Of a DNA stretch of 64,000 bases, positions 4,702 through 18,675 are shown piece by piece. Below the pieces are notes generated by a model. That model was not told the origin of the DNA and made no database searches. It saw only the letters and a list, made by a program, of their open reading frames with translations. Source of the DNA: Mycolicibacterium diernhoferi (GTDB lineage Bacteria; Actinomycetota; Actinomycetes; Mycobacteriales; Mycobacteriaceae); contig NZ_CP080332.1 of assembly GCF_019456655.1 (NCBI RefSeq), positions 3,596,001 to 3,660,000 on the forward strand. Direction: 5' to 3'. The translations under genes were made by a program, and so were the position numbers. Within the stretch, counting starts at the first letter, position 1. The number at the start of each line of letters is the position of its first letter.

Positions 4702-4828
4702 CGATAGATGATGCCAGAGAGCCGGTAGCAACGGAAGACGTCTCACTTTTACGCCAGCCCCTTGCAAAGATATGACGATTGATGGAAGCTATGTGACGTC
4801 TCGCACACAAAGTCGGTGGAGAGGGCGC
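4702..4828. promoter_or_regulatory. Divergent gntR/gntK control region
   Basis: 127 bases shared by gntR (minus) and gntK (plus). It contains an 8-bp direct repeat, GACGTCTC, at 4737-4744 and 4795-4802, each followed by a CAC-containing tail, with the first copy embedded in the palindrome AGACGTCT. These are candidate GntR sites. A good Shine-Dalgarno (GGAGAGGG) precedes the gntK ATG. Confidence 0.4.
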
Positions 4829-5341
4829 ATGGCAGCACCAATCGTGGTCATGGGAGTTTCAGGGTCGGGAAAGTCGACCGTCGGCGCTGCGTTGGCCCAG
4901 CGGCTACGGGTTCCGTTCGCGGACGCCGATGACTTCCACCCGCCGGCGAACCTCGCGAAGATGACGGCCGGGCATCCGCTCGACGACTCCGACCGCTATC
5001 CCTGGCTGGAGGCGATCGGGCTGTGGTTGGCCCAGCACCCCGACGGCGGCGTGATGAGCTGCTCGGCCTTGAAGCGGGTCTACCGAGACCAGCTGCGCCG
5101 GCATTGTGCCGAGATCGAGTTCCTGCACCTGGAGGGCACGGTCGAGACCATCGGCCGCCGCCAGGCCAGCCGGCCGGGACACTTCATGCCCGCAACGCTG
5201 CTGAAGTCCCAGTTCGAGACGCTCGAGCCACTGGAGGCCGACGAGCGCGGCGTCGCCATCAATGTGGACCAGAGCATCGACTCGATCATCGAAAGCTACG
5301 TGAGCACAACCGATTCCCGGACAACCAAGGAGGACCGATGA
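4829..5341 (+). CDS. gntK: Gluconate kinase
   Basis: Phosphorylates D-gluconate to 6-phosphogluconate with ATP, feeding the pentose phosphate pathway. About 170 residues, typical for GntK/IdnK. The P-loop is [11 protein letters not shown] close to the N-terminus, followed by the family signature ADADDFHPPANLAKM, then SCSALKRVYRDQLR and a C-terminal lid segment with RPGHFMPATLLKSQF. The ATG at 4829 was chosen over the upstream ATG at 4772 because a GGAGAGGG ribosome site lies just before it and homology starts there. Immediately upstream of, and in the same operon as, gntP. Confidence 0.93.
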   Translation: MAAPIVVMGVSGSGKSTVGAALAQRLRVPFADADDFHPPANLAKMTAGHPLDDSDRYPWLEAIGLWLAQHPDGGVMSCSALKRVYRDQLRRHCAEIEFLHLEGTVETIGRRQASRPGHFMPATLLKSQFETLEPLEADERGVAINVDQSIDSIIESYVSTTDSRTTKEDR

Positions 5342-5377
5342 TCGCGGGCACTGACATCACTCGGGTCGGGGGATCTC

Positions 5378-6808
5378 ATGGAGGCAATTGACCCGGCATA
5401 CGGAACCGCCACGCTGCTGCTGATCGCCGCGGCCGCGGTCGCGCTGCTGCTGTTCCTGATCATCAAGGTCAAGCTGCATGCCTTCGTGGCGCTGGTGCTG
5501 GTGAGCCTGCTGACCGCAGTGGCGGCCGGCATCCCGGTGGCCGATGTGCCGAGCGCGCTGTCCTTCGGCTTCTCCAACACGTTGGGCTCGGTCGCCCTGC
5601 TGGTCGGGTTCGGCGTCATGATCGGCCGGCTCCTGGAGATCACCGGCGGTGCCCAGGTCCTCGCCGACACGCTGATCAGCCGCTTCGGCGAGAAGCGCGC
5701 GCCGTTCGCCCTCGGCGTGGCCGCCCTGCTGTTCGGCTTCCCGATCTTCTTCGACGCCGGACTGGTGGTGTTCCTGCCGATCATCATGACGGTGGCACGG
5801 CGCTTCGGCGGCTCGATTCTGCTGTACGCGTTCCCGGCCGCCGGCGCCTTCGCGGCGATGCACGCCCTGGTGCCGCCCCACCCCGGTCCGGTGGCCGCGG
5901 CCGAACTGCTGGGTGCCAACATCGGCCTCACCCTGCTCGTCGGCGCGCCGGTCGCCGTCGCGTCCTGGTATGTCGGTGCATACCTGGTGTCCCAGGCCAT
6001 CGGGAAGCGGATCCACGTCGATATCCCGACCTCGCTGTTCGGTGAGATCAACGGCGGCCGCGACATCGACTCCGGCACGGACAGCACATCCGGGCCGGGC
6101 CAGGCCGGCGTCGCCACCCGGACCGCCCCCGCCTTCGCGACGGTGCTCGGCGTGCTGCTGCTGCCGTTCGTGTTGATCTCGTTCAACACCGTGCTGGACA
6201 CCCTGATGACCGCCGGTGTCATCGAGGAGGGCGCCACCTGGGCGAACTATCTCAAGCTGATCGGAACCACCTCGATTGCCCTGCTGATCACGGTGATCGT
6301 GGCGACATTGACGCTGGGCTTGCGTGGACGCTCGATGGCCGATGTCAGCGATATCCTCGACAACGCGCTCGGCCCGATCTGCGCGGTCATCCTGATCACC
6401 GGCGCCGGCGGAATGTTCGGTGGCGTGCTGCGACTCAGCGGTATCGGCGACGCGCTCAGCGGCTCCCTGTCGAACCTCGGTATCTCGCTGATCCTGCAGG
6501 CGTTCCTCATCGCCACCTTGCTCCGCGTCGCACAGGGCTCGGCCACCGTCGCACTGACCACCACGGCGGGACTGCTGAGCGCTTCGGTCGCCGCGGCGGA
6601 CCTGAGCAGTCTGCAGCTCACGGCGCTGGTGGTGGCGATCGCGGCCGGCGCGACGGTGCTCTCCCACGTCAACGATTCGGGCTTCTGGCTCGTCAGCCGG
6701 TTCTTCGGCCTGGACGTGAAGACGACGCTCAAGACCTGGACGGTCATGGAGACCACCCTGGGCCTGAGCGCCTTCGTGATCAGCCTCGGCTTGTGGGCGC
6801 TGGCCTGA
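5378..6808 (+). CDS. gntP: Gluconate:H+ symporter, GntP family
   Basis: Inner-membrane permease importing gluconate with protons; 476 residues, about 12-14 hydrophobic segments, family length about 450. Recognisable GntP stretches include GFPIFFDAGLVVFLPI, ALVPPHPGPVAAAELLG and VLSHVNDSGFWLVSRFFG. A GGGGGA ribosome site precedes the ATG. Forms an operon with gntK. The 36 bases between the genes also hold a 17-codon ORF starting at 5338 with a perfect AAGGAGG site; it overlaps the end of gntK and the start of gntP, so coupling through a leader peptide is possible. Confidence 0.94.
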   Translation: MEAIDPAYGTATLLLIAAAAVALLLFLIIKVKLHAFVALVLVSLLTAVAAGIPVADVPSALSFGFSNTLGSVALLVGFGVMIGRLLEITGGAQVLADTLISRFGEKRAPFALGVAALLFGFPIFFDAGLVVFLPIIMTVARRFGGSILLYAFPAAGAFAAMHALVPPHPGPVAAAELLGANIGLTLLVGAPVAVASWYVGAYLVSQAIGKRIHVDIPTSLFGEINGGRDIDSGTDSTSGPGQAGVATRTAPAFATVLGVLLLPFVLISFNTVLDTLMTAGVIEEGATWANYLKLIGTTSIALLITVIVATLTLGLRGRSMADVSDILDNALGPICAVILITGAGGMFGGVLRLSGIGDALSGSLSNLGISLILQAFLIATLLRVAQGSATVALTTTAGLLSASVAAADLSSLQLTALVVAIAAGATVLSHVNDSGFWLVSRFFGLDVKTTLKTWTVMETTLGLSAFVISLGLWALA

Positions 6809-6839: not shown

Positions 6840-8267
6840 TCAGACTCCGGTCGAAGGAGCAGTTCGGCGGGGGTTGAGTGGGGCCAGTGCCGACTCACAC
6901 CGCCCGGCGAAGGACAGCACCTGCAGATCCGCCGACCAGGGCCCCACGATCTGCAGGCCGACCGGCAGGTCACGGTTCGAGAGGCCGATGGGCAGCGACA
7001 GCGCCGGCTGACCGGAGATGTTGAACGGGTAGGTGTAGGGGGTCCAGGTGGCCCACGGCAGCGGCGCATCGGCGTGTCCCCCGCTGGGTACCTCGGCCTC
7101 GGCGGCGAAAGCGGTCAACGGCATCGTCGGCATCACCAGCAGATCCCAACGGTCGAACAGCCCGAAGGCCCACTCGTTGAATGCGCGCCGCTGCTGTGTC
7201 ACGGCGAAGAAGTCGGCCAGCGAATAGTCCTCGGCCAGGATCGCGAGCCGGGCCAGCCCGGGATCCATGACGTCGCGATGGGCTCGGATCACCTCGGCGA
7301 AGCCGAGCCCTCGTCCGGTCACCCACAGCCCGTCGAAGATCTCCAGGGGTGCGGCGCGATCCAGGGTGATCTCGGTCAGTTCGGCGACCCCGGCATCGGT
7401 CAACAGCCTGATCGCCGCATCGAAGACCTCGGCGACCTCGGCGCCCGGAGGTACCCCGAACGGTTCGCGGACCACCCCGACACGCAACCGCGCCGCCGGG
7501 TCCACGGGCACCCGGATCGAGAATGCGGATTGTGGATCACGGCTGTCCGGGCCACAGGTCAGCCCGAACACCGCCGCGGCGTCGTCCACGAATCGGGTCA
7601 ACGGACCGGCGTGCGAAAGGTTCTCGTTGACCGTCCCGGGCCACACCGGGATCGCGCCCAAGGTGGGTTTGAAGCCGACCGCGCCGCAGAAGGACGCCGG
7701 AATCCGGATCGATCCGCCGGCGTCGGTGCCCGTGGCGATCGGGACCGCGCCGGTGGCGACGGTGGCGCCCGATCCGGCACTCGAACCGCCGGTGTTGCAC
7801 GCGGTGTTCCAGGGATTGCGGGTCACACCGGTGCGGGGCGAATTGCCGGCTCCTTTCCAGCCGAACTCCGGTGTCGTCGCGCGGCCGATGATGACCGTGC
7901 CGGCCTCCTCGAGTCGCGCCACCATCGGTGAGGACTCCGTGACCGGATCGTCGGAGGTGGTCAGCGAGCCTTTCCAGCACGGCTGCCCCTCGATGTACAT
8001 GTTGTCCTTGGCCGCGATCGGTACACCGTGGATCACGCTGCGCAGCAACCCGGCACGCGCCTCGGCCTCCCGCTGGACGGCTATGGACCGCGCACGTTCG
8101 GGCATCAGCGCCGCATAGGCGTTCACCGCGGGCTCTTCCCGGTTCGCAACGGCCAGCGCGCACTCGACGAGGTGGACCGGAGACAGTTCGCCGGCGGCGA
8201 TCCGGCGCCCGAGTGCCACCGCACTGCTGGCGGCGTATTCCGCCAGGTCGAGGTCGACGAAGGTCAT
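6840..8267 (-). CDS. Amidase signature family hydrolase (GatA-like)
   Basis: Hydrolyses a carboxamide; substrate unknown. 475 residues, normal for the family. The Ser-cisSer-Lys triad is intact: Lys87 in IAAKDNMYI, cis-Ser162 in NTGGSSAGSG, nucleophile Ser186 in DAGGSIRIPA. No signal peptide, so cytoplasmic. Last gene of a five-gene minus-strand operon; its ATG overlaps the stop of the aminotransferase (ATGA). The frame stays open far upstream of 8267 because of the high GC content, but amidase homology begins at MTFVDLDLAEY. No gatB or gatC is nearby, so a role in tRNA amidation is unlikely. The neighbours point to release of ammonia from an imported amide or ring-opened heterocycle. Confidence 0.88.
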   Translation of the reverse strand: MTFVDLDLAEYAASSAVALGRRIAAGELSPVHLVECALAVANREEPAVNAYAALMPERARSIAVQREAEARAGLLRSVIHGVPIAAKDNMYIEGQPCWKGSLTTSDDPVTESSPMVARLEEAGTVIIGRATTPEFGWKGAGNSPRTGVTRNPWNTACNTGGSSAGSGATVATGAVPIATGTDAGGSIRIPASFCGAVGFKPTLGAIPVWPGTVNENLSHAGPLTRFVDDAAAVFGLTCGPDSRDPQSAFSIRVPVDPAARLRVGVVREPFGVPPGAEVAEVFDAAIRLLTDAGVAELTEITLDRAAPLEIFDGLWVTGRGLGFAEVIRAHRDVMDPGLARLAILAEDYSLADFFAVTQQRRAFNEWAFGLFDRWDLLVMPTMPLTAFAAEAEVPSGGHADAPLPWATWTPYTYPFNISGQPALSLPIGLSNRDLPVGLQIVGPWSADLQVLSFAGRCESALAPLNPRRTAPSTGV

Positions 8268-9355
8268 CGGACCGCCACCGTTCGCCAAGCCTCGCTGAAG
8301 GTGTCCGCCCAGGCCGGCGGAACAGACGTGCTCACCTTGACGAACCGTTCCCCGAAGATGGGCGACTGGTAGGTCCCGGGCCGGATGAACACTCCCGTCT
8401 CCTCGAGAATCCGGCGGCACAACTCGTCGGACGTCCAGCCACTGTCGGTGATGTCGATCGCCAGGAAATTGCCCTGCGAGCGGGGCACCACCACAGAGCC
8501 GACACCTGAACCGGCGACGGTCGTTTCGATCGCGTCGAGGTTCCGCCGGTTCACCCGCCGCAGATCGGGCAACCAGCGATCCCGGATGCGCAGCCCGGCG
8601 ATCGCGGCGCGCTGCCCCTGAATGCCGGCGCCGAGCGGGTTGGCGGGTACGGCCATCACCTCGGCGAGCAACTCCGGTGCGGCCACCACCGCGCCCACCC
8701 GCAATCCGGCCAGCCCCAGCCACTTCGAGAAGCTGTAGGTGGTGAAGGTTCGTTCGGGATACATCGTCGCCGCCAGCGTGTGCCCGTCGGCGAAATGCCG
8801 ATAGGTGGCGTCGTGGATCAGGTAGGACCCCGACTGCCGGGCCACCTCCACGATATCGGCCAGTTCGGCTGCGGTATAAGAGCTTCCGAGCGGGTTGAGC
8901 GGATCGATCAGGTAGATCAGCGAACCCGGCTCGACCACCTCGGCGATCTGCCCTGCGGACAGTAGCCGGTTCGGCTGTTCGAAGACCGGCAATGCACTGA
9001 CGGGTACACCGCCGACGCCGACGAAGCGCGCCGGCCACGGCCATCCCGGGTCGCTGGTGATCAGACGAGAGATCCTGGGCGCCAGCGTCGTACACACGTG
9101 GTGCAGGCCCGCCACCGCGCCGTCGACCACCCACGCGTCGAAACCTGGCAGACCCAGGTCCGCGACGATCAGTTCCCGCAGCTCGGTGAATCCGGCGGAC
9201 GGGGCGTAGACCTGGAATTCGTGCCGCCGGGTGCTATCGGCCAGTGCCGCGAGTACCTCGGGCGCCGGATCGAGGTGCGTGGTGTTCTGCCCCATCCAGA
9301 TCACATCGTCTCGACCGAGTAGTTCCTCGAACGAGGGTAGGACCGGCCCGCCCAT
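8264..9355 (-). CDS. PLP-dependent aminotransferase, class I/II fold
   Basis: Fold-type I PLP enzyme of about 363 residues. The Schiff-base lysine lies in YSFSKWLGLAGLRVG, the pyridine-nitrogen Asp and Tyr in HDATYRHF, and a variant of the NPTG loop reads NPLGSS. The C-terminal Arg that binds the substrate carboxylate is probably the one in VFIRPGTY or RFVKVS. Start taken as ATG at 9355, which overlaps the upstream stop as TGATG; a GTG at 9358 is equally possible. Substrate unknown; in this cluster it would remove or transfer an amino group from an intermediate, or act as a lyase. Confidence 0.82.
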   Translation of the reverse strand: MGGPVLPSFEELLGRDDVIWMGQNTTHLDPAPEVLAALADSTRRHEFQVYAPSAGFTELRELIVADLGLPGFDAWVVDGAVAGLHHVCTTLAPRISRLITSDPGWPWPARFVGVGGVPVSALPVFEQPNRLLSAGQIAEVVEPGSLIYLIDPLNPLGSSYTAAELADIVEVARQSGSYLIHDATYRHFADGHTLAATMYPERTFTTYSFSKWLGLAGLRVGAVVAAPELLAEVMAVPANPLGAGIQGQRAAIAGLRIRDRWLPDLRRVNRRNLDAIETTVAGSGVGSVVVPRSQGNFLAIDITDSGWTSDELCRRILEETGVFIRPGTYQSPIFGERFVKVSTSVPPAWADTFSEAWRTVAVR

Positions 9356-10323
9356 CACAACACCTTCCCTTCCACAACGCGCGGCACATCATCGAAATAC
9401 AGAGTGGCGCTTTGCATCACACAGTCCAGATGAGCCACCGCATCCACCGTTCCGCCATAGGCGACGGAGTTACCGAAGGCGATGTGGGCACTACCGAGTG
9501 ATGACTCGGTCTCCATTGCCACACCGCATACCGAGCCCTGTGGGTTGAGGCCGATGGCGACCTCGGCCAGGTTCGTCATCCTCGGATCCGCGCACCGCGC
9601 CATCATCTCGGTCAGCCGGGCGGCCTCGTCGCCGTCGGTTCCGACCAGTACGCCGTCGCGGATGTGCAACGTCGAAGCCTCCCGGCACGGTCCGGCCCCC
9701 ATGAACAGGTAGTCACCGTCGATCACCACGACCCCCGATGCGGATGATTCCACCGGGGCGGTGCCCGACTCGATGTCGGGCGGCGCCATATAAGCGCCCG
9801 GGTCACGCGCGATTCCGGTGAGCGCACGGCCTTTTCGCCCTCTGATCGAACCGGACAGGTCCGTGCCCGCAGGCGTGGTGAGCCGGAAGGTATCGGAGCT
9901 CTCCCACAGTGCCGCGATGGCCCGCGTGGTGACGGACAGCGCATCGAAGTCGACGTCGTAGGGCCCGCCGAGACGAAAGGTCTGCGTCGTGACGCCGGGC
10001 ATGGCCAGGTAGCGGCGGCCCGCATCGGTGGCCCGCCGCCGCGCCTGGTTGGAACCGATGAACACCGACGTCAGTTCGATCGCGGCGTCCGCGTCCAGCA
10101 GTGCCTGGGCGGCATGTGCGGTGGCTTCGGAGCCGGGCAGGTCGTAGCGGGGCACCGTGACGATGCGGACGTGTGCGGCACGTGCGTCGAGCCCGAGCTC
10201 AAGCCCGCGGACCACCGCCTGATCTGTGCCGCCATCGATGAGCAGCACCACGGTTTCGTCAGCACGTACTCCCAGACAGGTATCCAGAACACGGGAGACG
10301 GTGCGCTCGGGAAGGGTTGACAT
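9355..10323 (-). CDS. M29-type aminopeptidase / NicX-like metalloenzyme
   Basis: 322 residues resembling the thermophilic M29 aminopeptidase fold, which also includes 2,5-dihydroxypyridine 5,6-dioxygenase (NicX). Candidate metal ligands sit in the C-terminal third: Glu in TNLAEVAIGLNP, the GSAHIAFGNS histidine, and His-x-Asp in AHLDCVMQ. The N-terminal half is an alpha/beta domain without catalytic motifs. Length is closer to NicX-like proteins (about 350) than to true M29 peptidases (about 410). It could be a ring-cleaving iron dioxygenase or a di-zinc peptidase; the sequence alone does not decide. It overlaps the next gene by one base and is followed by aminotransferase and amidase, which suits a ring-opening role. 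Confidence 0.7.
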   Translation of the reverse strand: MSTLPERTVSRVLDTCLGVRADETVVLLIDGGTDQAVVRGLELGLDARAAHVRIVTVPRYDLPGSEATAHAAQALLDADAAIELTSVFIGSNQARRRATDAGRRYLAMPGVTTQTFRLGGPYDVDFDALSVTTRAIAALWESSDTFRLTTPAGTDLSGSIRGRKGRALTGIARDPGAYMAPPDIESGTAPVESSASGVVVIDGDYLFMGAGPCREASTLHIRDGVLVGTDGDEAARLTEMMARCADPRMTNLAEVAIGLNPQGSVCGVAMETESSLGSAHIAFGNSVAYGGTVDAVAHLDCVMQSATLYFDDVPRVVEGKVL

Positions 10324-10329
10324 GCGCTT

Positions 10330-11331
10330 CTATTCGGCCTTGATCTCGGCGGCGACCTCGGCGAGCACCTGCACGGTCCGCAGCCGGGATTCGACGCTGT
10401 CGGTGGTGGGAAACGCGGCGAAACAATCGATCCCGAGTTCTGCCATCGTCTTCAGATGGTCACGCACTACCGATTTGTCGCCGCACAGTGACATCCGCCG
10501 GACAAAGTCGTCCGGCAGCAGTCGGGCGGCGTCGGCGGCCTCTTGGAATTCTCCCCCGCCGTATGCGGACTTGACCCGCTGCGCGATGTCCTCGGGCAGT
10601 CCGGCCAGTCGGCAGTACTCGGGAGCGGTCTGTGGGAACCAGGCCGCGATGGTGCGACCGGCCGCCAGGGCGATCTCCTCGTCATCGTCGATGGCGCCGT
10701 ACCCGAAAACGGTGATCGACGGACGGGCATCACGCCCTGCCTTCTCGGCACCACGCTCGATGTGGCTGATCGCGTACTGCAGGCCCTCGGGGTGCAGACC
10801 GGCCAGCAGGATGACGCCGTCGGCGACGCGGCCGGCCATCTCCAGCGTCTTGGGCCCACTCGCCGATACATAGAGCGGGATCTGCGCCGGCGCGCCATAC
10901 CGGACGTGAGCCTTGTCGAGACTGAATCCGTTTGCCTCCCAGGTGACTTCTTCACCCGCCCAGAGTCTCCGGGTGGCCGTGATCGCGTCCTCCAGGACGG
11001 CCAGCCTGGCGGGTTTGTATCCCAACGCCAGCAGCGGTCGGTCCCCGGCTCCGATCCCGTACCGGAACCGTCCGCGGGATATCTCGTGCTGGGTCAGGGC
11101 CGCAACCGCGCTCACCCCGGGATGCCTGGTGATCGGGTTGGTGACAGCCGTGCCGATAGTCATCGTGCGGCTGTGCAGCGCGGCCAGCGTCGCGAACGAG
11201 TAGCAGCACTTCGCGTGCATGGAGGAATCGGTCAACCACAACTGGTCGATGCCCCAGCCTTCCATGGCGGTGACGATGCCGCCGAATTCATCTGCGGCGT
11301 AGACGGGTTGCAGGGCTGCTCCCACAAGCAT
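10330..11331 (-). CDS. Luciferase-like (LLM class) flavin/F420 oxidoreductase
   Basis: TIM-barrel oxidoreductase of 333 residues, in the range of F420-dependent methylenetetrahydromethanopterin-reductase-like enzymes. Family marks: IDQLWLTDSSMHAKCC near residue 30, IGTAVTNPITRHPGVSA, GRFRYGIGAGD, and PLYVSASGPKTLEMAG, all conserved loops around the cofactor. Second gene of the minus operon, six bases from the M29-like gene. Within the cluster it is the only obvious redox enzyme and may oxygenate or reduce the imported substrate; monooxygenases of this class (for example RutA) open pyrimidine rings, which would fit, but that is inference. Confidence 0.82.
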   Translation of the reverse strand: MLVGAALQPVYAADEFGGIVTAMEGWGIDQLWLTDSSMHAKCCYSFATLAALHSRTMTIGTAVTNPITRHPGVSAVAALTQHEISRGRFRYGIGAGDRPLLALGYKPARLAVLEDAITATRRLWAGEEVTWEANGFSLDKAHVRYGAPAQIPLYVSASGPKTLEMAGRVADGVILLAGLHPEGLQYAISHIERGAEKAGRDARPSITVFGYGAIDDDEEIALAAGRTIAAWFPQTAPEYCRLAGLPEDIAQRVKSAYGGGEFQEAADAARLLPDDFVRRMSLCGDKSVVRDHLKTMAELGIDCFAAFPTTDSVESRLRTVQVLAEVAAEIKAE

Positions 11332-11354
11332 GGCGAAATGTCCTTGTCTCGATG

Positions 11355-12575
11355 TCAGAGGGTGTCGCGGGTGGGGTCCGGGGACATGCTCAGCGCCGCG
11401 AACATGGCGTATGCGCGGGCCGCCTCCACGATCTCGTCCACGGTCAGGTGCTCGTTCGCCGCGTAGGCGCGCTCAGAGCCCGGACCGAAGATGATGGTGG
11501 GAACCTGGTGCCCGACACTGGAAGTGTCGCCCAACCAATTGCCTACCGAGACCGGTGATTCGTGTCCGCGGACTGCGGCCAACGCCCGGATCATGGTGGC
11601 GGCCACCTCATCGTCGCGCTTCACCAGGTAACCGTCCTTGACGTCGGCGAGCACCACCTCGGCCTGGAACCGCGGGTCGCGTTCCCGCGCACCGTCCAAA
11701 CAGCGGTCGATCTCGGCGCGTACCTGCTCGATCGTCACGCCCGGCTGCGGCCGGCAGTCCACCCGGATGACGCATTCGTCGGGAATCATCGACGGCCCGC
11801 CGGGTGGCAGCCCGCCGTACACCCGGCCTGGCACCATGTAGGTCTCCGGGCCGAACAGTTCAAGCACCCAGTCCTCAAGCTGCGGCTCCAGTTTCGACGC
11901 GTCCAGTTCGATGATGGCGTGTGCGGCAAGGAGGTTCGCATTGATCGCGGTCGGCTTATGGCAGGTGTGGGCGCTCAGTCCGCGCACGGTGATGTCGAAG
12001 TAGTACCGGCCGCGATGACCCAGATAAACCTGACTGCCCGAGCACTCGCCGAGCACCGCCAGATCGGCATCGTGATGCGCAAAGTACTCGATGGCCCCGC
12101 GCTGGTCGCCCATGTGATCGACGACGCCGGCGAAGGCCAGTCTGCCGTTGAGTTCGATTCCACTGGCGCGCAGGGCTTCCATGGCGATCAGCTGGCATAC
12201 CAGGGCCGCCTTCATGTCCATGATTCCTTGGCCGTAGATCGCGCCGTCGATCAACTCCCCCGAGTACGGTTCGGTGAGCGTCCATCCGTGCGACGGCGGC
12301 TTGGTGTCGATGTGCCCGGTCAGCACCACGGTCCGGCCACCGGTACCGAAATCGATGTGTCCGGTGGCGTTCGGCCGATCCGGGAGGACGGGCTGGGATG
12401 CCGCTGCATCGAATCCGGATCTGCGCATCATGTCCACGAGGTAGGCCGAGTACGCACCTTCCTCGCCCAGCACGCTGGGGATCCGGCAGATTTCCTGCAC
12501 GGTCGTCACCAGCCGGTCGATGTCGATGTGCTTGTCGACGATGGCCAACGTCTGAGCATCGGATGTCGCTATCAC
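11355..12575 (-). CDS. M20-family metallohydrolase (ArgE/DapE-like) with altered active site
   Basis: About 406 residues; catalytic alpha/beta domain split by a dimerisation domain. Metal ligands His88 and Asp90 (LTGHIDTKPP), Asp120 (GIMDMKAAL), a Glu in LGECSGSQV and the C-terminal His in ANEHLTVDEI are present. The usual Glu-Glu pair (general base plus ligand) reads Asp153-His154 in VVDHMGDQRG. The start is GTG at 12575, chosen because a perfect GAGGAGG site lies eight bases upstream; an in-frame TTG at 12602 would place that site inside the gene. First gene of the five-gene operon, divergent from the ABC importer. It probably cleaves an amide or carbamoyl bond of the imported compound. Confidence 0.82.
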   Translation of the reverse strand: MIATSDAQTLAIVDKHIDIDRLVTTVQEICRIPSVLGEEGAYSAYLVDMMRRSGFDAAASQPVLPDRPNATGHIDFGTGGRTVVLTGHIDTKPPSHGWTLTEPYSGELIDGAIYGQGIMDMKAALVCQLIAMEALRASGIELNGRLAFAGVVDHMGDQRGAIEYFAHHDADLAVLGECSGSQVYLGHRGRYYFDITVRGLSAHTCHKPTAINANLLAAHAIIELDASKLEPQLEDWVLELFGPETYMVPGRVYGGLPPGGPSMIPDECVIRVDCRPQPGVTIEQVRAEIDRCLDGARERDPRFQAEVVLADVKDGYLVKRDDEVAATMIRALAAVRGHESPVSVGNWLGDTSSVGHQVPTIIFGPGSERAYAANEHLTVDEIVEAARAYAMFAALSMSPDPTRDTL

Positions 12576-12600
12576 GCCAGTTTCCTCCTCGATTAACGAC

Positions 12601-12630
12601 AATATATGAGCGGCTGCCGAACACAGTCAA
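12601..12630 (-). promoter_or_regulatory. Promoter of the five-gene catabolic operon
   Basis: TTGACT (12630-12625) and TATATT (12606-12601) on the minus strand, separated by 18 bases, a near-consensus vegetative promoter. It would give a leader of roughly 20 bases containing GAGGAGG before the GTG at 12575. Confidence 0.6.
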
Positions 12631-12792
12631 CTCGTAGACATCACATTAGTATCGCTTTGACATGGTCTTTTATCGCCGCGAGCGGCTCGTAACACAACGT
12701 TTTCTTCATTGAAACCGCAAGTAACCGATCGATTGAATACTATCGTCAAGATTCGATTGACCGTCCGTACCCACTTGGAGGATCCCGCGCCC
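12631..12792. promoter_or_regulatory. AT-richer divergent control region of the import/catabolic cluster
   Basis: Noticeably lower GC than its surroundings. It contains CGATTGA twice (12730-12736, 12754-12760), and a TTGA...TCAA inverted repeat (12733-12749) that encloses a possible -10 box TACTAT (12738-12743) for the plus-strand importer operon. These are candidate binding sites for the GntR regulator at 15605-16270. A GGAGG site precedes the lipoprotein ATG. Confidence 0.4.
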
Positions 12793-13887
12793 ATGAAGAT
12801 GTCCACCTGGGTCGCCGCCAGCGCGGCCGCCGCAACCGCCCTCGCTCTTGCCGGGTGCTCATCCGGCAAGACTTCGGAATCCAGCACCGATGCCGACGGA
12901 GCCACGGCCGCCACACTGATGCTTCCGTTCCCCCGCGGAATCTTCTGGTCCCCGTTGGTCGTCGCGGAAGAGCAGGGCTACTTCGCCGACGAAGGGTTGG
13001 ATCTGACCATCGAAGAGGCCGACGGCTCAGGCTTTGTCACGCAGCAGTTGATCTCCGGCAATCTCGACTACGGCTTCTCCGGCGCGGCCAGTGCCGTGGT
13101 GGCCGCCGAGAAGGATCCCAACCTGCGCATTCCGATGTGCTACCCGGCCAGCAATATCTTCATCATCGTGACCCCTGAGGGGTCGGACGTCGCCTCGGTG
13201 GCCGATCTGCGCGGCAAGACGCTCGGGATCACCGAGGCCGGCGGCGGCGAGGAGCCGATCGTGAACGCGGCGTTGGCCGAAGCCGGGATGAAGCCTGGAG
13301 CCGACGTCACCCTGCTGCCGATCGGCGGTGCGGGCCCGCAGTCGCTGACCGCCTTGCAGAACGGGACGGTGGACGCCTACGCCACCAGCTTCGCCGATCT
13401 GGCCACCTTCACCGCGGCCGGAAACAAATTCACCGATATCACCCCGAGCTCGCTGGACGTCATTCCCGGCGACTGCATGGTGACCACCGCCGCAGCCTTG
13501 GCCGATCCCGCCAAGCGGGAGATCGGCGTCAAGATCGCCCGCGCCTACACCAAGGGCGCAGCATTCATCGACGCCAATCCCGAAGGTGCACTGGACATCG
13601 TGTGCAAGGCGGTGCCGGAGGAATGCACCGACATGAACTACGCGAAGGTGTACTTCGACGAGGTCCGCCGCTACGCCGGCAACTACCAGCCCGGTACCCC
13701 GTACGGCGCGGTGACCGCTGACGGCTGGGAGACCACCGTGAAGGTGTTAGCCGATTCCGGGGTGATCGAAGGCACCGTCGACCCCGTCGCCATCGGCACC
13801 GGCGAGGACATCGCCGACCTCCAGTCCGAATACTCCGACATCGACCTGCCCGCCGTACAAAAGGATGCACAGCAGTATGCGCCGTGA
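12793..13887 (+). CDS. ABC importer substrate-binding lipoprotein (NMT1/SsuA-like)
   Basis: Extracytoplasmic solute-binding protein anchored by lipid. The N-terminus is a lipoprotein signal with lipobox LALAGC (Cys about residue 21) followed by a Ser/Thr-rich linker. The mature part has NMT1/THI5-like features such as IFWSPLVVAEEQGYF, LDLTIEEADGSGF and LRGKTLGITEAGGGEEPIV. 364 residues from the ATG at 12793 with GGAGG upstream. This class binds small organic substrates (taurine, sulfonates, nitrate, thiamine pyrimidine precursors). Its stop lies within the ATPase gene start, so it is coupled to the transporter. Substrate unknown. Confidence 0.88.
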   Translation: MKMSTWVAASAAAATALALAGCSSGKTSESSTDADGATAATLMLPFPRGIFWSPLVVAEEQGYFADEGLDLTIEEADGSGFVTQQLISGNLDYGFSGAASAVVAAEKDPNLRIPMCYPASNIFIIVTPEGSDVASVADLRGKTLGITEAGGGEEPIVNAALAEAGMKPGADVTLLPIGGAGPQSLTALQNGTVDAYATSFADLATFTAAGNKFTDITPSSLDVIPGDCMVTTAAALADPAKREIGVKIARAYTKGAAFIDANPEGALDIVCKAVPEECTDMNYAKVYFDEVRRYAGNYQPGTPYGAVTADGWETTVKVLADSGVIEGTVDPVAIGTGEDIADLQSEYSDIDLPAVQKDAQQYAP

Positions 13888-14689
13888 GGCAGTCTCGGCC
13901 CGGATCACGACCGGTGACCACACGGCCACCGGCTCCGCGATCCGGGTCGAGGCGGTGACCAAGGTCTACCGGAGCGACAGTGGCCCGGTGGCTGCGCTGG
14001 ACCGGATCGACCTCGACATCGCCGAGGGCGAGTTCGTCTCTCTGCTCGGCCCCAGCGGCTGCGGAAAATCCACCCTGCTGCACATCGTGGCGGGCCTCAC
14101 CGAAGCCACCTCCGGCCGGGTCAGCATCGCAGGCAGCCCGGCGAGGGCGGACCGCACCGACGTGTCGATCATGTTGCAACGCCCCGTGCTCTTTCCCTGG
14201 AAGAACGTGCTGGAAAACGTGATGTTGCCGGCCAAGCTGCAGGGCAGCACTGCGTCGGAGGCCAAGGATGCAGCCATGCATTTCCTGGAGCTCACCGGTC
14301 TGGGCGATTTCGCGACCAAACAGGTGTGGGAGCTGTCAGGTGGAATGAAACAGCGAGTCAGCCTGGCCCGCGCGCTCGCCACCGACCCGCCGGTACTACT
14401 GATGGACGAGCCGTTCTCGGCCCTCGACGAATTCACAAGGGAGCGACTGAATGTCGAGCTTGCGCGTCTGCACGACGAGCATGGCCGCACGACCTTGTTC
14501 GTGACGCACAACATCACCGAAGCGGTGTTCCTGTCCGACCGGATCGTCACCATGAGACCTCGGCCCGGTGGCGTCGTCGACGTCATCGACATCGCGCTGC
14601 CCCGTCCGCGTACCGCCAGTCAGGCCACCTCAGCGGCTGCCATCGAGCTCGCGGCCGAGGTTCGTGGCTCCATCGCCGCCTATCTGTGA
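13877..14689 (+). CDS. ABC importer ATPase (SsuB/TauB-like)
   Basis: Cytoplasmic nucleotide-binding subunit, about 270 residues. Walker A GPSGCGKST, Q-loop IMLQRPVLFPW, signature LSGGMKQRV, Walker B LLMDEPFSALDE and switch His in FVTHNITEAV are all intact. The gene overlaps the end of the lipoprotein gene by 11 bases; ATG 13877 preferred over ATG 13865 because of an AAGGA site at better distance. It powers the permease encoded next. Confidence 0.92.
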   Translation: MRREAVSARITTGDHTATGSAIRVEAVTKVYRSDSGPVAALDRIDLDIAEGEFVSLLGPSGCGKSTLLHIVAGLTEATSGRVSIAGSPARADRTDVSIMLQRPVLFPWKNVLENVMLPAKLQGSTASEAKDAAMHFLELTGLGDFATKQVWELSGGMKQRVSLARALATDPPVLLMDEPFSALDEFTRERLNVELARLHDEHGRTTLFVTHNITEAVFLSDRIVTMRPRPGGVVDVIDIALPRPRTASQATSAAAIELAAEVRGSIAAYL

Positions 14690-14705
14690 ACGTGAGGAGA
14701 TGATC

Positions 14706-15524
14706 ATGAGCTCGCCGGACAGCACCTTCACCCAACCGGTCCTGCCACCGGAACCCAGCCGGGCATCCTCGATTTGGCGCCGGACCTGGCCCCCGACCTC
14801 GGTAGTGCTGACGATCATCGCGATCTGGGAAACGGTGGTCACCCTCGACTGGGTGAACCAGCTCATCCTGCCGGCACCGTCGGCGATCATGAGCAGTCTG
14901 GCTGCAATGATCACCGAACCGTTCTTCTGGGAGGCCGCACAAGCCACCATGACCGAGACCCTGGCAGGGTTTCTCATCGGCATCGTGACGGCCTGGGTGC
15001 TGGGCACCCTGCTCGGCATGTCGGACCTGGCGAGACGGGCCCTGTACCCCATCGTCGTCGCATTCCAGATCACCCCGCGAATTGCGTTCGCACCGATCTT
15101 CCTGACCTGGTTCGGCTTCGGCCTCGAGTCGAAGATCGTTATGGCAGCAACCATTTGCTTCTTCCCGCTGCTGCTCAATGTGCTCGTCGGGATGGAGACG
15201 GTGGATCGCGACGCCCGTACCCTCATGCGGTCGTTCGGCGCCAGCCGCTGGCAGGAGTACCGCGAACTCACCCTGCCGGCCTCCCTGCCGCTGATTCTTG
15301 CCGGCATCAAGAACGCGGTCACCCTGGCGCTGATCGGTGCCATCGTCGCCGAATTCGTCGGTGCTTCGGTCGGAATGGGCGTACTGTCCAAGACCTTCAG
15401 CTTCCAGCTCGATGTCGCGTCCTCGTTCGCCGTGATCATCGCGCTGATGTTCTTCGGTCTGGTGCTCTACGGCATCGTCGAGCTCATCGACAAGAAGCTC
15501 GTCTATTGGCGGGATCGCTCTTGA
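14706..15524 (+). CDS. ABC importer permease (SsuC/TauC-like)
   Basis: Inner-membrane subunit, about 272 residues with six predicted membrane segments and the cytoplasmic EAA-type loop (YRELTLPASLPLILAGIKNA) that docks on the ATPase. Start ATG 14706, seven bases after GAGGAG; an in-frame ATG two codons earlier overlaps that site. Third gene of the importer operon. It probably works as a homodimer because only one permease gene is present. Confidence 0.9.
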   Translation: MSSPDSTFTQPVLPPEPSRASSIWRRTWPPTSVVLTIIAIWETVVTLDWVNQLILPAPSAIMSSLAAMITEPFFWEAAQATMTETLAGFLIGIVTAWVLGTLLGMSDLARRALYPIVVAFQITPRIAFAPIFLTWFGFGLESKIVMAATICFFPLLLNVLVGMETVDRDARTLMRSFGASRWQEYRELTLPASLPLILAGIKNAVTLALIGAIVAEFVGASVGMGVLSKTFSFQLDVASSFAVIIALMFFGLVLYGIVELIDKKLVYWRDRS

Positions 15525-15604
15525 CCGCCGAATCAACTATCATCACCGGTTCATCGACCGTGTCAGGGTCGACAGTTCCTCCGAACTCGAGCGCAGGGCC
15601 TTCG

Positions 15605-16270
15605 ATGGATCTTCAACAGGTTAAAGACCGTGTCTACCAACGGCTTCGCGAGGACCTCATCTCTCAGGAGATCCCTCCCGGCGCAGCGCTCAAAGAAATC
15701 CCGCTCTCCGAACGGTTCGGGGTGAGCAAGACTCCGATCAGGGAAGCCCTGGCTCGTCTGGAAAGTGACGGCCTCGTCGAAATCGCCCCGTACCGGGGGG
15801 CCCGCGCCAAGTGGTACACCGCGCGCGACTTCGACCACCTCTACGAGGCACGGTTCGTCGTCCAGGCCGAATGCCTGCAACGGATCACCGAGAACCCGGA
15901 CTCACCGGCCGCCAAGGCCCTGCTGGCCAACGTCCAACGTTCCACGGAACTGCTGGCGGCCGAGCAGTACGACGAACTCGTCACCGAGATCGACCGGTTC
16001 GACGAGATCCTGTTCAGCGCGATCGACAACGATGTCCTCCGCGAAGTCATCGACCGGATCGCGACGCACTTTCGCCGCATCGGCCGGAACACTATGACCG
16101 AGGCCCGATTCAAGTCCTCCGTCGAGGAGCACAACGAGATCGTGAAGGCCGCCCGGGACGGCAATCAGAAGCGGGCCAGGGATCGGCTGCTCAGGCACAG
16201 TGACCACACCAAAGCCGATCTGCTCGCCCTCTTACGCTCGACCGAAGAGGGCATGGTTGCGGACTCGTAA
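15605..16270 (+). CDS. GntR-family regulator with FCD domain, linked to importer cluster
   Basis: About 221 residues. Winged helix at residues 1-70 (PLSERFGVSKTPIREALARL), then an FCD helical effector domain. ATG 15605 is used; weaker GTG/TTG starts upstream (for example 15559) would add residues of no family resemblance. Located last in the importer operon, so it probably regulates it and the divergent enzyme operon, with the imported compound or a metabolite as effector. Distinct from the gluconate regulator at 3982-4701. Confidence 0.83.
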   Translation: MDLQQVKDRVYQRLREDLISQEIPPGAALKEIPLSERFGVSKTPIREALARLESDGLVEIAPYRGARAKWYTARDFDHLYEARFVVQAECLQRITENPDSPAAKALLANVQRSTELLAAEQYDELVTEIDRFDEILFSAIDNDVLREVIDRIATHFRRIGRNTMTEARFKSSVEEHNEIVKAARDGNQKRARDRLLRHSDHTKADLLALLRSTEEGMVADS

Positions 16271-16316: not shown

Positions 16317-16364
16317 AGGCATATCGTGGCCAGACACCGTAGTTCAAGGGTCAACGAGGACGCC

Positions 16365-17429
16365 ATGACTGCAGCACAAGATTCCGCACCGTCCAGCGAG
16401 CAGGCGGCCATCCCGCTCGGCCCCGATTCCCTGACCTGGAAGTACTTCGGTGACCTGCGCACCGGACTGCTCGGGGTATGGGTCGGTTCGATCCAGAACA
16501 TGTATCCCGAACTCGGCGCCGGCGTCGAGGACCACTCGATCCTGCTGCGTGAGCCGCTGCAGCGGGTCGCCCGCTCGGTGTACCCGATCATGGGCGTGGT
16601 CTACGACGGGGACCGCGCCGCGCAGACCGGTGAGCAGATCAAGGGCTTCCACAAGGACATCAAGGGCACCGACGGGCAGGGACGCCGCTACCACGCGCTC
16701 AACCCGGACACCTTCTACTGGGCGCACGCCACCTTCTTCATGCTCATCATCAAGACCGCCGAGTACTTCTGCGGCGGGCTGACCGAGGCCGAGAAGCACC
16801 AACTGTTCGACGAGCACGTGCAGTGGTACCGGATGTACGGCATGAGCATGCGCCCGGTGCCGGACAGCTGGGAGGACTTCCAGGTCTACTGGGACCGCAA
16901 GTGCCGCGAGGAGCTGGAGATCAACCAGGCCACCCTGGACATCTTCACCATGCGGATCCCCAAGCCCTGGTTCGTCCTGATGCCCACCGCGGTCTGGGAT
17001 CAGCTGTTCAAACCGATGGTCGACGCGCAGCGCTGGGTGGCCGCCGGGGTGTTCGATGCCCCGGTACGGGAGAAGGCCGGGATGCGCTGGACCCCCGGCG
17101 ACGAGATCCTGTTGCGGCTCCTGGGCAAGGCGGTCTCGGTGGCGTTCACCGCGGTACCCGACGAGATCCGGCTGCATCCGCGCGCGGTCGCCGCCTATCG
17201 GCGCGCCTCGGGCAGGGCACCCGCCGACGCCCCGCTGGTGGAGGCGCCCGGGTTCATGGCGCCGCCGCCGGATCGGCGCGGTCTGTCGATGCATTACCAA
17301 CCCCCACAGCGCTCCCTGTTGGACCGGGCGGGATCATTGGTGCACACCACCTTCTCGCTCGCCGGGCTGAGCCGACTCCCGTCGCTTCGCTCACCCCGGA
17401 AGCCGGAAGCCAATCGAGAGGTTGCTTGA
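16365..17429 (+). CDS. DUF2236 / MpaB-like oxygenase-type protein (Rv1645c-like)
   Basis: About 354 residues, soluble, of the family related to latex-clearing protein and MpaB-type haem oxygenases. Visible family features: REPLQRVARSVYPIMGVVYDG, FHKDIKGTD (candidate His), YWAHATFFMLIIKTAEYF with a further His, and WYRMYGMSMRPVPDSWEDF. Start ATG 16365 follows an ACGAGG site. The order next to tsnR matches M. tuberculosis. Operon with the acyl-CoA dehydrogenase just downstream (overlap or five-base gap depending on its start). Substrate unknown. Confidence 0.78.
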   Translation: MTAAQDSAPSSEQAAIPLGPDSLTWKYFGDLRTGLLGVWVGSIQNMYPELGAGVEDHSILLREPLQRVARSVYPIMGVVYDGDRAAQTGEQIKGFHKDIKGTDGQGRRYHALNPDTFYWAHATFFMLIIKTAEYFCGGLTEAEKHQLFDEHVQWYRMYGMSMRPVPDSWEDFQVYWDRKCREELEINQATLDIFTMRIPKPWFVLMPTAVWDQLFKPMVDAQRWVAAGVFDAPVREKAGMRWTPGDEILLRLLGKAVSVAFTAVPDEIRLHPRAVAAYRRASGRAPADAPLVEAPGFMAPPPDRRGLSMHYQPPQRSLLDRAGSLVHTTFSLAGLSRLPSLRSPRKPEANREVA

Positions 17430-17433
17430 CACG

Positions 17434-18675
17434 ATGCTGGAATGGTCTGACGTCGATATCGCCGTGCGCGATGCGGTACGGGAATTCATCGACAAGGAGA
17501 TCCGCCCGAATATCGATGCGCTGGAGAGCGGCGAGATGGAGCCCTACCCCATCGTCCGCAAGCTGTTCGCCACCTTCGGTATCGACCAGATGGCCAAGGA
17601 ATCGTTGGAGCGCAGGCTGTCTCGGCTGCGCGAGGGCGGCGACTCCGCCAAGACCCCGAAGGCGTCGGGGTCCATGTTCGGCGGCGGCCCCGACCAGGCC
17701 GGCATGGGTTTCGTGTTGATCAGCGAGTTGTGCCGGGTCTCCATGGGCATCGTCACCGGATTGGGTGTCAGCCTGGGCCTGACGGTACCGACCATCCAGA
17801 GCCGCGGCACCCTGGCCCAGCAGGAGCGCTGGCTGCCCGGCCTGGTGACCTACGAGAAGATCGGCGCCTGGGCCATCACCGAACCGGATTCCGGCTCGGA
17901 TGCCTTCGGCGGCATGAAGTCCTACGTCACCCGCGACGGCGACGACTACATCCTCAACGGGCAGAAGACATTCATCACCAACGGCCCCGACGCGGACGTG
18001 GTGGTGGTCTACGCAAAGCTCGACGAGCCGGGTGTCGACAAGCGCGACCGCAAGGTGCTGACCTTCGTCCTGGACAAGGGCATGGAGGGCTTCGTGCAGT
18101 CGAAGCCGTTCCACAAGATGGGCATTCATTCCTCACGCACCGGCGAGCTGTTCTTCAACAATGTGCGCCTGGGCCGCGACCGGCTGCTGGGTGAGACCGA
18201 GGACAACAAGTCCGGCGACGGCCGCGACAGCGCCCGGTCCAGCTTCTCCACCGAACGCATCGGGGTGGCGGCGATGGCGCTCGGCGTCATCGAGGAATGC
18301 CTGCGGCTGTCGGTCGATTACGCCAAGACCCGGGTGCTCTGGGGCAAGGAGATCGGCCAGTTCCAGCTGATCCAGCTGAAGCTGGCGAACATGGAAGTCG
18401 CCCGGATGAACGTGCGCAACATGCTGTTCCGCGTCATCGAGTCGGCCAAGGAGGGTAAGTCGATCTCACTGGCGGAGGCCTCGGCGATCAAGTGGTACTG
18501 CTCGCAGGCCGCCACCGATGTCGCGATGGAGGCTGTGCAGCTCTTCGGCGGCAACGGCTATATGAGCGAATACCGGGTGGAGCAGCTGGCCCGCGACGCC
18601 AAGTCGCTGATGATCTACGCCGGCAGCAACGAGGTCCAGATCACCCACGTGGCACGGGGACTGCTCAGCGACTGA
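17434..18675 (+). CDS. Acyl-CoA dehydrogenase family flavoprotein
   Basis: FAD enzyme of about 413 residues that would introduce a double bond alpha-beta to a CoA thioester. Family motifs: AITEPDSGSDAFGG, NGQKTFITNG, and C-terminal GGNGYMSEYRVEQLARDAK. In the loop where many members carry the catalytic Glu (YEGT/S) this protein reads IYAGSNEVQ, so the base is absent there; a Glu in STERIGVAAMALG lies where isovaleryl-CoA-type enzymes keep theirs. ATG 17434 chosen; TTG 17422 would overlap the previous gene. Cotranscribed with the DUF2236 gene. Confidence 0.88.
   Translation: MLEWSDVDIAVRDAVREFIDKEIRPNIDALESGEMEPYPIVRKLFATFGIDQMAKESLERRLSRLREGGDSAKTPKASGSMFGGGPDQAGMGFVLISELCRVSMGIVTGLGVSLGLTVPTIQSRGTLAQQERWLPGLVTYEKIGAWAITEPDSGSDAFGGMKSYVTRDGDDYILNGQKTFITNGPDADVVVVYAKLDEPGVDKRDRKVLTFVLDKGMEGFVQSKPFHKMGIHSSRTGELFFNNVRLGRDRLLGETEDNKSGDGRDSARSSFSTERIGVAAMALGVIEECLRLSVDYAKTRVLWGKEIGQFQLIQLKLANMEVARMNVRNMLFRVIESAKEGKSISLAEASAIKWYCSQAATDVAMEAVQLFGGNGYMSEYRVEQLARDAKSLMIYAGSNEVQITHVARGLLSD

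Follow-up and report, generated by a model that had tools for sequence, protein, structure and literature searches.

A conserved import-and-degrade gene cluster of Mycolicibacterium diernhoferi and its possible role in the catabolism of the vitamin B1 pyrimidine

Which compound is taken up and broken down by the products of nine adjoining genes is the question raised by positions 6840 to 16270 of a 64,000-nucleotide stretch of the Mycolicibacterium diernhoferi genome (GCF_019456655.1, contig NZ_CP080332.1, forward-strand positions 3,596,001 to 3,660,000; hereafter the window). The cluster combines five genes for catabolic enzymes with a divergent set encoding an ATP-binding cassette (ABC) importer and a GntR regulator, and the first-pass annotation had proposed a self-contained pathway for scavenging nitrogen from a heterocyclic or N-acylated compound. 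A self-contained unit for import and degradation, probably of a heterocycle and conserved elsewhere, is supported here. Our analysis suggests, with a probability of about 50%, that the window encodes the later part of a likely route for degrading the pyrimidine of vitamin B1 (thiamin), in which the importer would bring in a pyrimidine already oxidised to the 5-carboxylate. The breakdown of a vitamin B1 remnant is considered likely because about half of the examined genomes with relatives of these enzymes have a thiaminase-type gene nearby.

The cluster and its relatives

The nine genes are present and arranged as first described, with a five-gene minus-strand set diverging from four plus-strand genes (lipoprotein, ATPase, permease, GntR). 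In window coordinates, the genes are:

6840-8267, minus strand: amidase-signature hydrolase, 475 amino acids, with K87 and GGSS/GGS catalytic motifs (PF01425, 5.2e-86)
8264-9355 from ATG (or 9358 from GTG), minus strand: pyridoxal phosphate-dependent class I/II aminotransferase, 363 amino acids, Lys211 (PF00155, 3.5e-32)
9355-10323, minus strand: M29/NicX-superfamily metalloprotein (P0003), 322 amino acids, matching NicX 7cn3
10330-11331, minus strand: luciferase-like (LLM) oxidoreductase, Mer-like, 333 amino acids (PF00296)
11355-12575, minus strand: M20-family hydrolase, 406 amino acids from a GTG behind GAGGAGG (PF01546/PF07687)
12793-13887, plus strand: NMT1-type substrate-binding lipoprotein, 364 amino acids, LAGC lipobox (PF09084, 9.1e-29)
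13865-14689, plus strand: ABC ATPase of the importer (PF00005)
14706-15524, plus strand: ABC permease of the importer (PF00528, scanned from 14700), with GAGGAG upstream of the ATG at 14706
15605-16270, plus strand: GntR/FCD regulator (PF00392 and PF07729)

The tight spacing of the enzyme genes was also verified, with gaps of 6 bases (LLM/M29-like) and 23 bases (M20/LLM) and overlaps of 1 or 4 bases, by start choice (M29-like/aminotransferase), and of 4 bases (aminotransferase/amidase). An alternative, longer M20 start at a TTG (12602) is less likely than the GTG. Pfam models matched eight of the nine window proteins, the exception being the M29-like protein. The nearest named homologues of the window proteins belong to Mycobacterium and Mycolicibacterium, and the host genome consists of a single contig of 6.0 Mb.

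Scanning 84,980 species with a profile of 17 M29-like proteins yielded 40 loci, whose neighbouring genes were identified first by a conservation-based choice and then by tblastn of named proteins; neighbourhood clustering left out the short stretches L001-L008, and the trees left out L001 and L057, which are duplicates, as well as short, incomplete rows. A core triad of M20, LLM and M29-like proteins was found in 35 of the 40 loci (M20 in 38, LLM in 36), and in the exceptions (L022, L029, L039, L044, and L048) the stretch is short or breaks off within the cluster. Moreover, the grouping of the five enzymes is not due to chance, since the same order is kept in 9/40 loci from other genomes, so that the rarity of co-occurrence which would have spoken against the first description was not borne out. 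Two endings follow the core. The window type, with aminotransferase and amidase, occurs in nine loci (L009-L015, L025, and L046), and a B12-type mutase with a coenzyme A (CoA)-transferase occurs in 29/40; L022 and L039 show neither, and no fetched stretch of the 40 loci has both. A second M20 protein is encoded in 23/40 loci and a VOC protein in 11/40. As a separate observation, five loci of Acidimicrobiia lacking a TenA match (L031, L034, L035, L038, and L047) hold a minimal set of M29-like, M20, mutase, CoA-transferase and LLM genes, which may mean that they lost the front end independently.

Phylogenetic analysis placed the window proteins in the same 11-row clade in all three trees (support of 98/97 for LLM, 100/100 for M29, and 100/97 for M20), and this clade also contains the core enzymes of loci linked to TenA. 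The five window enzymes share 58-70% identity with the clade members from outside the mycobacteria, and the importer differs. The cluster is rare among relatives of the window genome: in a search of 100 genomes, an M29-like match (E 0.001) was obtained in six, and a close copy only in the window genome and one more genome of its genus (G056, 82%).

Linkage to genes of the vitamin B1 pyrimidine

TenA (thiaminase II) was first seen through the conserved neighbours of the core. Pfam names all four of the neighbouring TenA proteins scanned, three of the four exceed the cut-off of the equivalog model TIGR04306, and comparison with the solved TenA 1tyh gave 132.5 bits. Linkage was evaluated in 38 genomes, corresponding to 36 of the 40 loci together with G000 and G056 (L019, L033, L039, and L044 were left out). 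These genomes contain 70 TenA matches distributed over 33 genomes, 24 of which have one over the cut-off. TenA lies at most 20 kb from the M29-like gene in 18/38 genomes, where the number of TenA genes and the genome sizes would predict 0.69, and at least two TenA genes were found in nine; the corresponding Poisson value overstates the strength of this linkage, as TenA copies on the same contig are not independent and the 38 genomes are related. In addition, a control of 76 genomes around G104 showed, among the first 47 listed, two and three TenA genes in the two genomes with an M29-like gene and none in the 45 without it.

Other genes adjoining the core are consistent with a front end acting on the thiamin pyrimidine. 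ThiY-like proteins were found in 11/40 stretches, and the binding protein of L011 matched first a transporter protein (4nmy, 4.7e-44) and second ThiY (3ix1, 5.5e-35), which binds N-formyl-aminomethyl-pyrimidine (FAMP). The full set was recovered in extended stretches of Microbacterium, Nakamurella, Nocardioides, Demequina, and Herbiconiux, where an NtaA-type flavin mononucleotide (FMN) monooxygenase, TenA, an Amidohydro_2 protein, a GMC oxidoreductase, a TRZ/ATZ amidohydrolase, a ThiY-like protein, a second TenA, permease and ATPase are accompanied, in varying order, by GntR, aldehyde dehydrogenase (ALDH) and core genes. The window core enzymes share one clade with those of clusters holding TenA, ThiY-like, GMC alcohol oxidoreductase, aldehyde dehydrogenase and TRZ/ATZ-type amidohydrolase genes. 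Besides, three loci (L032:828-5322, L036:5191-9797, and L048:1647-6086) carry next to the core a block composed of a creatininase-like protein, a zinc alcohol dehydrogenase, F24, F17 and TenA, where F24 is a family of about 310 amino acids with no Pfam match for the proteins scanned and F17 is AurF/DUF455-like.

Salvage instead of catabolism was considered as an explanation of these links. No thiamin pyrophosphate (TPP) riboswitch over the gathering score was detected in the window, L049, L050, L016 or L023, a result that counts against salvage in these five sources and does not exclude it.

Predicted enzymes, importer and proposed route

The LLM protein had initially been read as an oxygenating enzyme; it is instead most similar to F420-dependent reductases of the Mer type (top PDB hit Mer 1z69, E 7.1e-39) and not to oxygenases, and a Pfam scan identified no flavin reductase among the nine window proteins. 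The window genome passes the searches for both cofH and cofD, and cofH is over its cut-off in 19 of 26 carrier genomes. In Demequina, cofD, cofC, cofE and an F420-dependent glucose-6-phosphate dehydrogenase gene come directly after the catabolic genes (325, 131, 223, and 601 bits against cut-offs of 257, 105, 181, and 420, respectively). F420H2-dependent reduction is likely because these F420 assembly and F420-dependent dehydrogenase genes adjoin the catabolic genes, and the LLM protein is likely an F420H2-dependent ring reductase. This Demequina block lies at L012:15679-19271 in Demequina salsinemoris, whose genome gave no cofH match, and the organism may obtain the F420 precursor from elsewhere. 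Related clusters also hold true FMN-dependent LLM monooxygenases (L050:9058-10413, TIGR03860, 459.9 bits against a cut-off of 279.7). Separately, a RutA-like LLM monooxygenase adjoins the cluster in L011 (15000-16112; 233.4 bits, cut-off 498.3) and L013, where it is present besides the NtaA-type one, and possibly serves the cleavage of thiamin or thiazole.

The M20 protein keeps the M20 fold and the site-1 metal ligands of ArgE/DapE-type enzymes, and the alignment shows that it lacks their catalytic Glu-Glu and last His: DHMGD stands where the Glu-Glu motif is expected and Tyr replaces the His ligand. These changes are conserved, with H163-M164 in 36/36 rows with letters and Y380 in 39/39. The structure model has a mean predicted local distance difference test score (pLDDT) of 88.9; its top fold matches include DapE, ArgE and 5-nitroanthranilate aminohydrolase (5k8m-5k8p), the last a similarity of fold only; DapE and 3pfo score as high in Z. 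The predicted substrate of the protein is the heterocycle itself, on which it may work as an aminohydrolase. In the mutase clusters, the second M20 retains the Glu-Glu in 17/17 sequences and the His in 16/17 (one gap), and it is plausible that the altered M20 works on the ring, through deamination of an ortho-amino carboxylate, and that the second M20 is an ordinary deacylase. YlmB of thiamin salvage is likewise an M20-family protein.

The M29-like protein has no Pfam match at E 0.1 and no NCBIfam match at E 0.001, and thus no match to an M29 aminopeptidase family model; NicX (7cn3) is its sole PDB relative at E < 0.3 (3.5e-11 as a sequence, 1.5e-14 as a profile). Residues E254, E271, E273, H280, H298, and D300 are invariant in 41/41 rows. 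The metal ligands of M29 aminopeptidases are E, E, H, H, and D, to which the invariant residues E254, E271/E273, H280, H298, and D300 may correspond, in a half of the protein where the structure model is poor. NicX, a 2,5-dihydroxypyridine 5,6-dioxygenase of the same superfamily, binds Fe(II) through H265, S302, H318, and D320 according to PMC7910607. Two of these four ligands are kept (H318 and D320 as H298 and D300) and two are replaced (H265 and S302 by E254 and A282), and the M29-like protein adds the invariant E271, E273, and H280. NicX-type ring cleavage was rejected on the replaced ligands, and the label "NicX-like" holds at the level of the superfamily and fails for the type of enzyme. 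Because of E254 and A282 at the NicX ligand positions and the six invariant residues, a metal hydrolase is more likely, and the protein is predicted to be one, not a NicX-type dioxygenase. Distant relatives of the M29-like protein also occur in 104 plasmid records, all below 60% identity, including haloarchaeal, Niallia and Rhodococcus plasmids (H1-H8) at 26-32% identity.

Regarding the window ending, the amidase is under the cut-off of all 25 NCBIfam models listed (best PRK06169, 409.7 of 506) and would, as predicted, act late in the route by releasing the nitrogen of an amide. The aminotransferase, for which PRK06225 gave 350.6 bits against a cut-off of 351, is predicted to transaminate the final amino compound. 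The mutase of the other ending has 2-hydroxyisobutyryl-CoA mutase (HCM) as its best PDB match overall and, like HCM, separate large and small subunits. It retains in 29/29 rows the arginine of methylmalonyl-CoA mutase (MCM), which binds the malonyl carboxylate, at a position where HCM has Gln. Unlike both, it is grouped with the core enzymes, and it is absent from the window cluster. The VOC proteins of the loci belong to the Glyoxalase_4 family, to which methylmalonyl-CoA epimerase is related. An (acetamidomethyl)malonyl skeleton is suggested by the MCM-like arginine, the VOC family, the canonical second M20 and the altered M20, and we infer that a rearrangement of the methylmalonyl-CoA type would turn it into an (N-acetyl)aspartyl skeleton.

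In the route that we propose, bacteria with complete clusters would import FAMP through the ThiY-like system, and TenA enzymes would convert it to hydroxymethyl-pyrimidine (HMP), which a GMC or zinc alcohol enzyme and the ALDH would oxidise to 4-amino-2-methylpyrimidine-5-carboxylate. The 4-amino group would be lost through the TRZ/ATZ or the altered M20 enzyme, the LLM protein would reduce the C5=C6 bond with F420H2, and the M29-like and M20 proteins would hydrolyse the ring to an (acetamidomethyl)malonate-type acid or half-amide. The window ending would then have the amidase strip the amide and the aminotransferase pass the amino group on, leaving malonate-semialdehyde-type carbon. In the 29 mutase loci, CoA-transferase and B12 mutase would convert the same malonyl skeleton to (N-acetyl)aspartyl-CoA, from which a canonical M20 deacylase could yield aspartate.

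The window cluster is read as a module starting from a later intermediate because it has no linked TenA, no match to the L011 TRZ/ATZ protein, no ALDH orthologue and no clear ThiY, and its importer probably takes a later, carboxylated pyrimidine. The window lipoprotein has 3qsl as its best PDB match (1.3e-14), and tblastn retrieved relatives of it only in L009, L057, and L025 among 58 loci. The GntR/FCD regulator is predicted to control both divergent operons, and two near-identical 13-base sites in opposite orientation, one facing each operon, were found in the divergent promoter region:

12593-12605, plus strand: first predicted site for the regulator, TTAACGACAATAT, located upstream of the M20 start and within a block that L009 and L057 share
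12737-12749, minus strand: second predicted site for the regulator, TTGACGATAGTAT, located upstream of the lipoprotein gene and likewise within a block that L009 and L057 share

The motif TTRACGAYARTAT matches exactly these two sites within the window when at most one mismatch is allowed, and was derived from the same sites, so that comparison with shuffled sequence is no independent test of it; its two copies are candidate GntR sites. The cluster is flanked by genes that we take to be a gluconate kinase and a GntP permease upstream (4772-6808) and a DUF2236-type gene and an acyl-CoA dehydrogenase downstream (16326-18675). A search for an empty site with the flanking genes 5378-6808 and 16326-17429 (41 genomes each) showed none, as the two were not found close together on one contig in the relatives with both genes.

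Alternatives, known systems and significance

Several observations weigh against the vitamin B1 reading. The linkage alone is no proof of catabolism, because TenA and ThiY also serve thiamin salvage, and no TenA was found within 35 kb in 18/38 genomes. TenA is not rare in bacteria, since 25 of the remaining 29, more distant, control genomes have it and all 29 lack an M29-like gene. In the window genome the only TenA lies about 3 Mb from the core and scores 97 of 130 bits; searches of four genomes with TRZ/ATZ and ALDH proteins gave in the window genome no match to the L011 TRZ/ATZ protein, the sole deaminase query, and no orthologous ALDH (best 42-44% identity). The other mycobacterial genomes, G056, G100, and G112, likewise showed no TenA close to the core (in G100 and G112, both drafts, these genes sit on separate contigs), and a TenA match was lacking in five core-carrying Acidimicrobiia (G118, G128-G130, and G135). 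The window lipoprotein matched ThiY 3ix1 at only 1.2e-7, behind 3qsl and 4nmy, and is not clearly ThiY-like. The two endings are not cleanly separate, given that L029 and L048 have the mutase plus a class III aminotransferase. The LLM protein passes no curated NCBIfam cut-off (best PRK02271, 157 of 276 bits; TIGR03555, 143.7 of 348.7). The M29-like structure model, built from 17 sequences, has a mean pLDDT of 64.6 with several stretches of the C-terminal half below 50, and was not used for a fold search owing to this low confidence. Lastly, cofH gave no match in G103, G106, G108, and G120 among the 26 genomes searched. An absolute dependence on F420 is weakened by these four genomes and partly restored by cofD, present in 8/8 genomes searched including those four, and by the Demequina block.

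The main rival is that the mycobacterial version was re-purposed for a related but different ring, which would pass through the same reduction, hydrolysis and transamination; a 5-carboxypyrimidine derived from thymine or elsewhere is one example. It would account for the window's own importer, whose binding protein has relatives in just three loci, for the lack of a match to the L011 deaminase, of a linked TenA and of an ALDH orthologue, and for a core conserved at 58-70% identity alongside a different transporter. The position of the core enzymes in one clade with TenA-linked clusters speaks against it, suggesting a shared intermediate, and we consider this re-purposing unlikely, albeit worth keeping in view.

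An operon that scavenges N-acylated amino acids, peptides or hydantoins in general, in which the LLM protein would be an accessory, is improbable. Most members of the M20, amidase and M29-like families hydrolyse peptides or acyl compounds, and the M20 protein has 3pfo, ArgE and DapE among its top matches; this protein nevertheless lacks the canonical Glu-Glu and His, and peptide breakdown would hardly call for a reductase, a mutase or TenA/ThiY neighbours. The first proposal, oxidative cleavage of a pyridine or pyrimidine ring by a NicX-like dioxygenase and an LLM monooxygenase, is very improbable. It is favoured by NicX being the sole PDB relative of the M29-like protein and by the TIGR03860 monooxygenases of related clusters, and is contradicted by the two exchanged iron ligands, the missing flavin reductase, and the Mer-like core LLM protein with its F420 genes in Demequina. 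Finally, degradation of the thiazole half of thiamin, for which a 3-mercaptopyruvate sulfurtransferase-like gene next to the core in L040-L043 and L045 (146.1 bits, cut-off 250) and an alcohol dehydrogenase and ALDH able to oxidise the hydroxyethyl group could speak, hardly deserves credence, since ThiY and TenA handle the pyrimidine and the deaminases, amidase and aminotransferase suit a nitrogen-rich ring.

Returning to the vitamin B1 pyrimidine, the proposed route resembles parts of known systems. In reductive pyrimidine degradation and the Rut pathway, as in our proposal, the C5=C6 bond is reduced and hydrolytic opening leads to a beta-amino acid, but the nine window genes include no dihydropyrimidine dehydrogenase or dihydropyrimidinase and have a Mer-like LLM protein and M20/M29-like hydrolases instead. 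Vitamin B6 catabolism runs via 2-(acetamidomethylene)succinate and likewise opens a 2-methyl vitamin ring to an N-acetyl amine acid; it uses a flavin oxygenase, whereas the proposed route would reduce the ring first. Salvage of the thiamin pyrimidine employs the ThiXYZ importer, YlmB and TenA (Jenkins et al., 2007, as cited in PMC5627462). It shares a ThiY-like protein and TenA with the complete relatives of the window cluster and stops at HMP for thiamin synthesis, while the proposed route would continue with reduction, ring hydrolysis and amino or CoA chemistry; unlike salvage, the clusters have GntR genes and, in the five sources scanned, no TPP riboswitch.

The claim that no described pathway has this gene set was sustained in the open-access literature, where no thiamin-pyrimidine catabolism beyond HMP was found, a closed-access description being possible; "aminomethylmalonate" and "acetamidomethylmalonate" did not occur among the matches listed in the literature search. 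Of the pathway first drawn, import and degradation of a likely heterocycle stood and the oxidative step did not, and the TenA/ThiY links and the mutase ending had not been part of it. Tentatively, and with more doubt than confidence, some actinobacteria might eat vitamin B1 by importing its pyrimidine in the form of a breakdown product, oxidising it to a carboxylate, reducing it with F420H2 and hydrolysing it to aminomethyl-malonate, which would go to aspartate through a new B12 mutase or to a three-carbon acid through the amidase and transaminase of the window; mycobacteria and some Acidimicrobiia would keep the back half and live on the leftovers of others.

According to PMC10470507 and PMC10881298, marine plankton can be supported by products of vitamin B1 breakdown, and measurement of how B1-related compounds cycle has only begun; the term "catabol" does not occur in either main text. 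If true, a route dedicated to destroying the vitamin would act as a sink in the vitamin B1 cycle. It would also give F420 a new role in the reduction of a vitamin ring, extend the acyl-CoA mutase family to a new class of substrates, and provide a function for many proteins now named "aminopeptidase" or "acetylornithine deacetylase".

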